Shown here: piece after piece, positions 487-16,220 of the stretch
Layout: every line of letters starts with the position of its first letter
How positions within the stretch are numbered: the stretch's first letter is position 1
IMG/VR virus record: IMGVR_UViG_3300028197_000114
Location: 1-29,037 of that record
DNA from: a virus
Strand: one strand, 5' to 3'
DNA: 29,037 bases
The notes under the pieces: generated by a model
Told to the model about the DNA's origin: nothing
Database searches by the model: none
Seen by the model: only the letters and a program-made list of their open reading frames with translations
Program-made: the position numbers and the translations under genes

Positions 487-1488
487 TTACAGCAGTTCGT
501 ACTCTTTGATTGATTCAAATATACGGTGTGCTACTTGTGGCACTATGGCATTTCCGTATCCTTTAATGCTTTCGCTTCTCCACTTTGGAAAGGTAATGCC
601 GTCCAATTCTTTGGGAAGCCCATCATCTCCTCCACAAATAGGGGTGACAGTTGGGAAGTTTTCCCACCTATTTCGTACTTCGTCGCTACCCTGTCTGATA
701 GGTTGTTTCTCCCTCGGTCTATTGATGCATTGGCTTTTGCTTGTTGCGCTGTTGGTGTGGGTAGCAACTGATGTATTTGGGTTGCTAGGTTTGGCATCGT
801 TGTTCCGTTCGGGTATTTCTCCATCCTTGCTTTGAACTTCTCCAAGTCGTGAACTGGTTCCGATGTTGTTGGAGTCAGAAGCAAACCTATTTTTTCCATA
901 GTCGGTTTGTATTCGCTCATTACCTCCTGTGCTAACGTTCCCGAATCCCCACTCTTTGGATTCTTCTTGCCGCTGACTACTAGCCCGTCCATTGCTGTTG
1001 GTGTTTTTAGCAACAACCCAAACTCTGTCTCGTCTGTGGGGAGCGTTGACGGCACAAGCAGGAATAATAAACGATTGGACGGAGTACCCGATATTTTCCA
1101 AGTCAGCGCACACTTCCTCGAATACCAATCCGTCCGACCAATTAACAATCCCGCGAACGTTCTCGCCCAAGACCCAACGGGGATTACACTCTCTGATAAC
1201 TCTAAGCATCTCTTTCCACAGATAGCGTTCATCATCTGATCCCTTTCGTTGCCCTGCAAGGCTGAAGGGTTGGCAGGGGAATCCACCGCTAAGGATGTCA
1301 ACTCGTCCATTATACTTAGTTGCGTCGAACTCCTTGATGTCTCCATATTGTTCTGCATTCGGAAAGTGATACTTTAAAATCTTACGTGGAAATTCTTCCC
1401 ACTCGCAATTGAATATGTTTTCAAAGCCTGACCATTCCGCTGCCAGGTCAAAACCTCCAATGCCACTGAACAAACTTGCGTGTGTCAT
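487..1488 (-). CDS. dcm: C5 cytosine-specific DNA methyltransferase
   Basis: This 333-residue enzyme transfers a methyl group from S-adenosylmethionine to C5 of cytosine in a specific DNA site. Motif I is FSGIGGFDLAAEW (residues 7-19). Motif IV is GGFPCQPFS with catalytic Cys72. ENV (109-111) is motif VI and HRRDRVW (151-157) is motif VIII. The C-terminal GYGNAIVPQ is motif X. The stretch from about 160 to 280 is N/S/T-rich and poorly structured, where the target-recognition region is expected. Its start overlaps the upstream winged-helix gene as ATGA. No endonuclease partner is visible, so it probably protects phage DNA from host restriction. A second long ORF lies inside it in another frame. 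Confidence 0.95.
   Translation of the reverse strand: MTHASLFSGIGGFDLAAEWSGFENIFNCEWEEFPRKILKYHFPNAEQYGDIKEFDATKYNGRVDILSGGFPCQPFSLAGQRKGSDDERYLWKEMLRVIRECNPRWVLGENVRGIVNWSDGLVFEEVCADLENIGYSVQSFIIPACAVNAPHRRDRVWVVAKNTNSNGRASSQRQEESKEWGFGNVSTGGNERIQTDYGKNRFASDSNNIGTSSRLGEVQSKDGEIPERNNDAKPSNPNTSVATHTNSATSKSQCINRPREKQPIRQGSDEVRNRWENFPTVTPICGGDDGLPKELDGITFPKWRSESIKGYGNAIVPQVAHRIFESIKEYELL
543..1358 (-). CDS. Overprinted 271-codon ORF inside the methyltransferase gene
   Basis: This ORF lies on the same strand as the methyltransferase, in the +1 frame, and covers about codons 44-315 of that gene. It has an ATG start. The product has three similar proline/threonine motifs (LLKTPTAMDG, LLTPTTSEP, LLPTPTAQQ), a tract LTWKISGTPSNRLLFLLVPS and an ending LSPLFVEEMMGFPKNWTALPF. 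These read like a real protein family. From memory, unverified, very similar sequences are annotated as separate proteins in other phages with this type of methyltransferase. The in-frame counterpart (GGDDGLPKELDGITFPKW) is equally typical of the enzyme, so both frames look selected. No function can be assigned, and expression is unproven. Confidence 0.5.
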   Translation of the reverse strand: MQNNMETSRSSTQLSIMDELTSLAVDSPANPSALQGNERDQMMNAICGKRCLELSESVIPVGSWARTFAGLLIGRTDWYSRKCALTWKISGTPSNRLLFLLVPSTLPTDETEFGLLLKTPTAMDGLVVSGKKNPKSGDSGTLAQEVMSEYKPTMEKIGLLLTPTTSEPVHDLEKFKARMEKYPNGTTMPNLATQIHQLLPTPTAQQAKANASIDRGRNNLSDRVATKYEIGGKTSQLSPLFVEEMMGFPKNWTALPFQSGEAKALKDTEMP

Positions 1489-15039: not shown

Positions 15040-15306
15040 TTAATACCCATAGTTGGCTTCGTCTAAAAGCTCTACAAACAAATCAAAGTCTCTTGGTAGA
15101 AAAACACCTGATGGTTTCATCTCCTCAAATATGAGATACGCGCGTTCATAGTTTTCCTCAAGAATCGCTTCTTCTATAATGTCTAACCCATGCAAAAAGC
15201 TGTCATCAAACATATAGTCTAATCGAAATTCACCGAGCATTTCAAGCAACTCCTGCTGACTCGTGTTTGTCCATGAAGACCAAATCCTGTTTACTAATGG
15301 ATTCAT
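15040..15306 (-). CDS. Acidic helical protein between protease and scaffold
   Basis: This 88-residue protein is acidic and helical, with RIWSSWTNTSQQELLEMLGE and FDDSFLHGLDIIEEAILEENY. No motif is recognised. Its start overlaps the protease stop as ATGA, and it ends 22 bases before the scaffold start. It could be a head-assembly chaperone by position, or a mobile small gene of the accessory type upstream. Confidence 0.65.
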   Translation of the reverse strand: MNPLVNRIWSSWTNTSQQELLEMLGEFRLDYMFDDSFLHGLDIIEEAILEENYERAYLIFEEMKPSGVFLPRDFDLFVELLDEANYGY

Positions 15307-16220
15307 CCGTATGTGTTGTAGTATTTACGCTTTAAATACGCTGTATAGAACTTTACCTTTCTTTGGTTTAGTTCTACTTTATCCATCTCTACGTTCTCTT
15401 CTTCTACTCGGTCTTCAACAGCCTTGACTTCACCATCGTATTCTGTAAGAACACCTTCGTACACTTCTAATTCGATACCTGCTTCCGTAGTGTAGCTGCC
15501 GTTATCCATTTCAGCAGGCAGTCCTTCTTCGTCAATCTTAAACACTACGCTTCCTGCTGCCAGGCTTTCACCTTCTGTAGCAATGGTAAATCCCTGTGTC
15601 AGCGTTACCTCTTGGTAGAACTTTCGCTTAACAGCAAACCACAATTTCTTAAATATTTTTTTCATGGATAGTGACTGACTCATTTCTTCTACCTTATCTG
15701 AAAAGTAACCTTCAATACTTAGCCCACGTAGTTTGCCGTTCTTTATCTCGCTCCACACCTCATCGTTAGCTACCTGTAATTTTACCATCCAAGTACCCGA
15801 TGGTACAGCAAAACCATAAACCTTGCTTTTATCTAGCTCAGGGTCTTCTACTATCCAACTCTCAACCACGCTTACATCATCTACTTTTTCTAGATGCTCC
15901 TTTGTGTGATCGTTTGTGCGATTCTGTTTTAGAAATAACTCACTAGCTAATTTGACTGTTTCCTTACTGAAGTACACATCGTATTCTTCATCGGTGTTTT
16001 CGTCAATCCTTGGAATGTGTTTGTCAGGAATTAGGGCTGCACCCACCACTGTACGTTGGTCTTCGTCTACAGCCGCTAAGCTCATAGCGCGTGTGTTGCC
16101 GTCCTTGCTAAAGAAAACAAAGTTCTCTTCGATTGCAGGAAACTTTACAAGACTAATTGCCTCTACTCCCCATGCAGTAGAACCTTCTTCAATAAGCAGT
16201 TCAACAAGTTTGCGCTCCAT
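15303..16220 (-). CDS. XkdF-type prohead protease
   Basis: This 305-residue protein matches the XkdF-like serine protease family (S78-like) that matures the prohead. Conserved stretches are VVGAALIPDKHIPRID (59-72), DVYFSKETVKLASELFL (81-97), then NDHTKEH with His105 and His109, ESWIVEDPELDKSKVYGF and a glycine motif LRGLSIEGYF with candidate nucleophile Ser168. The C-terminal 130 residues are acidic and may be a propeptide or scaffold-binding part. It is the first head gene after the accessory island and uses the island's start cassette (TAAATAACAGAGATATG), so the motif is not confined to the small genes. Confidence 0.85.
   Translation of the reverse strand: MERKLVELLIEEGSTAWGVEAISLVKFPAIEENFVFFSKDGNTRAMSLAAVDEDQRTVVGAALIPDKHIPRIDENTDEEYDVYFSKETVKLASELFLKQNRTNDHTKEHLEKVDDVSVVESWIVEDPELDKSKVYGFAVPSGTWMVKLQVANDEVWSEIKNGKLRGLSIEGYFSDKVEEMSQSLSMKKIFKKLWFAVKRKFYQEVTLTQGFTIATEGESLAAGSVVFKIDEEGLPAEMDNGSYTTEAGIELEVYEGVLTEYDGEVKAVEDRVEEENVEMDKVELNQRKVKFYTAYLKRKYYNTYG

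Follow-up and report, generated by a model that had tools for sequence, protein, structure and literature searches.

Two overlapping reading frames of a phage locus probably encode the catalytic and the target-recognising subunit of one C5-cytosine DNA methyltransferase

An arrangement in which overlapping frames encode the catalytic and the recognition part of a methyltransferase has been reported for a few bacterial enzymes. For M.EcoHK31I, Lee et al. are said to have described in 1995 that a different frame within the large-subunit gene also encodes the small subunit. In this enzyme, motifs I-VIII and X reside on the large subunit and motif IX on the small one, while the predicted TRD was assigned to the large subunit (PMC3404938). 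Multispecific Bacillus phage enzymes, on the other hand, bear several recognition domains in tandem (PMC8936443).

Here, we analyse a nested locus in a virus record of 29 kb. The whole stretch of 29,037 nt, referred to as the window, encodes terminase, portal, tail and replication genes. We consider it very probable that the two frames of this locus specify the two subunits of a single C5-cytosine DNA methyltransferase, with the second chain (beta) in charge of target recognition. The long frame would yield alpha, i.e., the SAM-binding, catalytic large domain with motifs I-VIII and X, which would be unstructured where other enzymes carry the target-recognising small domain. Ribosomes that initiate separately on a +1-frame ATG inside the gene would produce beta, which would supply the missing small domain, i.e., a core, one to several swappable L-P-T-P cassettes and motif IX. 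Both chains may then assemble on the DNA such that beta chooses the sequence via its cassettes and alpha methylates the cytosine, which would probably shield the phage DNA from host restriction. The two genes are arranged as follows.

487..1488, minus strand: C5-cytosine methyltransferase gene, putative alpha (catalytic) subunit, 333 aa (PF00145, phrog_363, AF2, Foldseek)
543..1358, minus strand: nested +1-frame gene, putative beta subunit with cassettes and motif IX, 271 aa (ORF, PHROG, selection)
1356..1358, minus strand: ATG start of beta (alternative-frame ATG also found there in relatives, see below)

The first-pass annotation had reported a 271-codon ORF overprinted on the methyltransferase gene. 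This ORF is present with an ATG start and lies wholly within the enzyme gene; its first base is 130 nt into that gene in the +1 frame, i.e., an alternative codon consists of the enzyme codon positions 2,3,1'. The LL.TPT repeats and the NWTALPF ending noted for its product are both there, and the methyltransferase motifs said to be intact in the same DNA were located in alpha. The surprise expressed at the ORF's length was justified in part. In 1000 versions of the enzyme gene with shuffled synonymous codons, the +1 frame is never open as long (276 codons observed; shuffle mean 123, maximum 259), but the assumed null of one stop per 18 codons exaggerates the effect, since the +1 frame offers few stop-compatible contexts. 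By the same measure, the openness of the +2 frame is ordinary.

With regard to alpha, the protein matches phrog_363 (E 2.1e-74) and PF00145 (E 1.1e-48, far exceeding the cut-off). Motifs I-VIII and X are present (I, IV, VI, VIII and X located), while motif IX is absent from alpha. The AF2 model is confident for the large domain, with pLDDT <50 for residues 167-287 and 295-311, and Foldseek comparisons with M.HhaI and M.HaeIII cover about 167 columns, i.e., the large domain only. That is, alpha fails as a complete single-chain C5 methyltransferase with small domain and motif IX, the small domain being without a model. Its features are:

1261..1287, minus strand: alpha motif IV, GGFPCQPFS (catalytic Cys)
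1009..1044, minus strand: alpha motif VIII, APHRRDRVWVVA
628..990, minus strand: alpha stretch without predicted structure (residues 167-287, AF2), opposite the beta cassettes
529..558, minus strand: alpha motif X, YGNAIVPQVA

Almost the entire hidden-frame product aligns to PHROG 1008 (beta residues 6-260 on profile positions 24-286 of 329, E 5.5e-23). No beta match was found in Pfam or NCBIfam, and searching PDB sequences with a profile of beta gave chance hits only (E 1.6 or worse). AF2 models beta alone poorly (mean pLDDT 51), and the model was left out of the fold search; its core appears in the weak model as a two-strand hairpin. The following elements can be distinguished within beta.

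1299..1325, minus strand: TQLSIMDEL close to the beta N-terminus; QxSLF takes its place in many relatives (motif count over 214 loci)
1014..1172, minus strand: conserved core ahead of the cassettes, SWARTF...ALTWK..GT..RLLF.L.PST (near-invariant alignment columns)
885..1013, minus strand: putative recognition cassette 1, type E (LLKTPTAMDG...)
768..884, minus strand: putative recognition cassette 2, type A (LLLTPTTSEP...)
651..767, minus strand: putative recognition cassette 3, type D (LLPTPTAQQA...)
588..650, minus strand: motif IX-like element, LSPLFVEEMMGFPKNWTALPF (hhalign)

At its C-terminus, beta has LSPLFVEEMMGFPKNW, which can be aligned with motif IX of canonical C5-methyltransferases. 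The direct hhalign comparison is weak alone (probability 6%, P 0.006), while actinobacterial in-frame sequences link both sides (hhalign P 2e-9 to beta and P 3.1e-6 to canonical IX-X); in these intermediates, motif X shares the frame of the motif IX-like element. In Tsukamurella (record recovered by an unfiltered HMMER run), a single chain runs from motifs I-VIII through LPTP cassettes to motifs IX and X. Cassettes, IX and X are found on a second ORF in Twister, Geodirt, KBurrousTX and Streptomyces plasmids. Two Chitinophagaceae genomes have an extra beta-like ORF directly after an alpha with nested beta. These free-standing copies (L399 2320-2905, L407 2501-3068; E 1.5e-19 and 2.4e-23) show 50% mutual identity and have no enzyme frame beneath; they are possibly extra specificity subunits.

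The cassettes sit between the core and motif IX, start with L-P-T-P and comprise 30-45 residues (median 39). Their order in the window's beta is E-A-D. Most members have one to four cassettes, and up to about nine were counted by eye in KBurrousTX. Overall, the 191 cassettes from 76 proteins represent at least 26 groups, arranged in 54 orders. Judged from this analysis, the cassettes would be interchangeable target recognition units that set sequence specificity, and they would offer a readable code to tie to methylation targets.

The QxSLF motif near the beta N-terminus resembles a sliding-clamp-binding motif, and a clamp role is suggested by its sequence. When ignoring the kinship of the loci, the strict form of QxSLF / QLTLxxL is found in 78 of 214 loci (3.4 expected) and the loose form in 133 of 214 (9.5 expected). 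As a separate observation, a putative sliding clamp gene (L322 1765-2301) is located two genes past the nested methyltransferase of Klebsiella phage RSU-F4K5.

Beta is coding, it carries motif IX and a domain common to fused methyltransferases, and alpha has no modelled small domain. As far as sequences can tell, beta is most likely the target-recognising half of the enzyme. Alternatively, the hidden-frame protein might be real without being an enzyme subunit, e.g., an overprinted anti-restriction or replication protein. We regard this as unlikely: although selection proves coding and not function, beta alone models poorly and the clamp-binding-like motif could signal a separate role, the same domain is fused in frame between VIII and X in Tsukamurella, Twister, Geodirt and KBurrousTX have IX together with X in a second ORF, and alpha is without motif IX and small domain.

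To follow both frames through related genomes, relatives were collected by two queries, i.e., the enzyme and the hidden frame. The +1 frame is open for 190-354 codons over the equivalent stretch in 76 of 78 distinct complete genes. The two remaining ones are Tweety, in which it is not open, and CheeseTouch, in which it is open only in part. We rejected a reading of both as losses of beta, since motif IX sits there in the enzyme's own frame. In the Mycobacterium phage Tweety (L155), the earlier cassettes are in the +1 frame and the last cassette and motif IX in the enzyme frame, as if a state between split and fused forms had been caught. Among 214 distinct nested loci, the median is 272 open codons and the minimum 190; this set was picked partly by hidden-frame similarity, while the enzyme-query set is free of such selection. 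A non-overlapping beta match in one further locus (L055) was rejected as a domain-boundary artefact. In summary, we found the nested family spread over hundreds of phages and prophages from several phyla.

An ATG near the beta start is found in 72 of 73 close relatives compared to 39.8 +- 4.0 expected from shuffles, and in the Firmicute member Diva a GGGAGG is located 12 nt upstream of the internal ATG. Both frames could also be joined, as the first-pass annotation had asked, by a programmed +1 frameshift past motif VIII that connects the first half of alpha to the hidden frame, beta having no start of its own. The same strand and the +1 offset fit such an event, and the actinobacterial fusions prove such a chain workable. 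We nevertheless do not favour it because the internal ATG is conserved. In a sliding window, furthermore, constraint is strong at enzyme codons of about 91-305 and weaker from about 46, i.e., selection on the hidden frame extends back to about codon 46-90, well upstream of motif VIII. The shifted product would also be without motif X, and free-standing beta copies occur, such that we deem a frameshift very unlikely.

Selection was measured in pairs whose enzymes are 75-90% identical. Third positions diverge by 0.21 within the overlap compared to 0.40-0.42 in the flanking parts, while first-position divergence is 0.21 within and 0.08-0.17 outside. First positions freed and third positions frozen are as expected, since the enzyme's first positions are the wobble positions of the second frame. 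While these pairwise rates pool related sequences, 26 independent pairs agree: dSN/dSS is 0.17 inside the overlap (0.73-0.96 outside) and dNN/dNS is 0.53 inside (0.97-1.92 outside). That is, synonymous sites of the enzyme are strongly constrained in the overlap only. The first-pass annotation had named stops in relatives or neutral change as arguments against a second gene; the outcome favours coding, the frame being open apart from Tweety and, in part, CheeseTouch. These patterns identify the hidden frame as a conserved protein-coding gene under selection.

The same annotation had supposed that the enzyme's variable N/S/T-rich segment is shaped by double coding, and the data agree. Over enzyme codons 161-270, identity is 39.5% for the hidden frame and 26.0% for the enzyme, while 17.3% is expected for the hidden frame when derived from enzyme and codon usage. 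In addition, changes that are silent in beta and alter alpha exceed the reverse (NS>SN) in 500 of 500 bootstraps. Given both, this segment of alpha is best seen as a shadow of beta. In this locus, the low complexity and rapid change of a segment in one protein are clearly accounted for by selection on another.

The idea that the long frame is a chance ORF, i.e., a mere reflection of how the enzyme is conserved and which codons it uses, is refuted by the following tests and has next to no probability left. The offset does make stops rarer than in random DNA (cf. the null mean of 123 codons), but we count 14 alternative-frame stops in 73 close relatives while about 327 are expected from codon-shuffled controls. 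Alternative-frame identity is about twice the codon-shuffled expectation within the overlap and close to expectation outside. Canonical methyltransferases from viral contigs (n=63) have no long frame (median 71 codons) and normal third positions. Finally, homologues exist that have no enzyme frame underneath. Selection on RNA or DNA structure rather than on a second protein, which by itself would fit the lowered synonymous change, is rejected as practically implausible, since the signal follows the codon phase, with free first and frozen third positions, and since the hidden-frame protein is also conserved where it stands alone or is fused.

Coming back to the two-subunit enzyme, a bolder version would be that recognition has moved wholly to the second frame, that cassette swaps generate multispecific enzymes and that beta maybe docks to the replication sliding clamp such that new phage DNA is methylated while it is being synthesised; we put this forward tentatively, with its chances a little short of even. 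In practical terms, alpha cloned alone would probably be an inactive enzyme. Since annotation pipelines usually list one gene of the pair, databases lack one half of many phage methyltransferases. For Salmonella phage W5_chr3 (L323 757-1686), the hidden frame alone is annotated ('Mte8-like'), while for the E. coli E21 prophage (L428) and a Bacteroides phage it is the enzyme frame alone. Elsewhere in the window, a protein at 18895-19608 matches the anti-restriction protein family PHROG 2059 (E 1.6e-9), and the head protease gene at 15303-16220 also matches phrog_1530 'DNA methyltransferase' (E 4.5e-19), a label that probably reflects a mislabelled or fused family.

Among the known systems, M.EcoHK31I (YGGCCR) is the precedent for the window locus in terms of motif layout and nesting: the locus has the same motif split and the second chain is nested in the other frame. 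It differs in that the selection evidence here places target recognition in the small subunit. Neither cassette shuffling nor a phage-wide spread was found for M.EcoHK31I in the open-licence literature. M.AquI is likewise an enzyme in two chains, the small one of which comprises the distal variable region and motif IX (PMC3404938), but it also carries motif X, which is part of alpha in the window; the M.AquI layout is thus resembled by the actinophages Twister, Geodirt and KBurrousTX and not by the window. The Bacillus phage enzymes of SPR, phi3T and H2 are multispecific with tandem recognition domains as in beta (PMC8936443); they are likened by layout and are single chains in one frame, in contrast to the beta cassettes in a second frame. 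The ShiLan domain of actinophage methylases is also an out-of-frame protein within a phage methylase gene, but it represents an inserted HNH homing endonuclease and no enzyme subunit (PMC11855218). PHROG 1008 and gp50 of Paenibacillus phage Diva ('g49 internal gene') belong to the same family and show the same nesting, while their records are labelled just 'DNA methyltransferase' or internal gene, without role or mechanism. No account of a phage-wide nested methyltransferase family was found in the open-licence literature. The kind of arrangement is already known, and depositors had annotated nested ORFs in Paenibacillus phages. What appears to be new is its spread, the shuffling of cassettes and the hidden frame as the site of target recognition.
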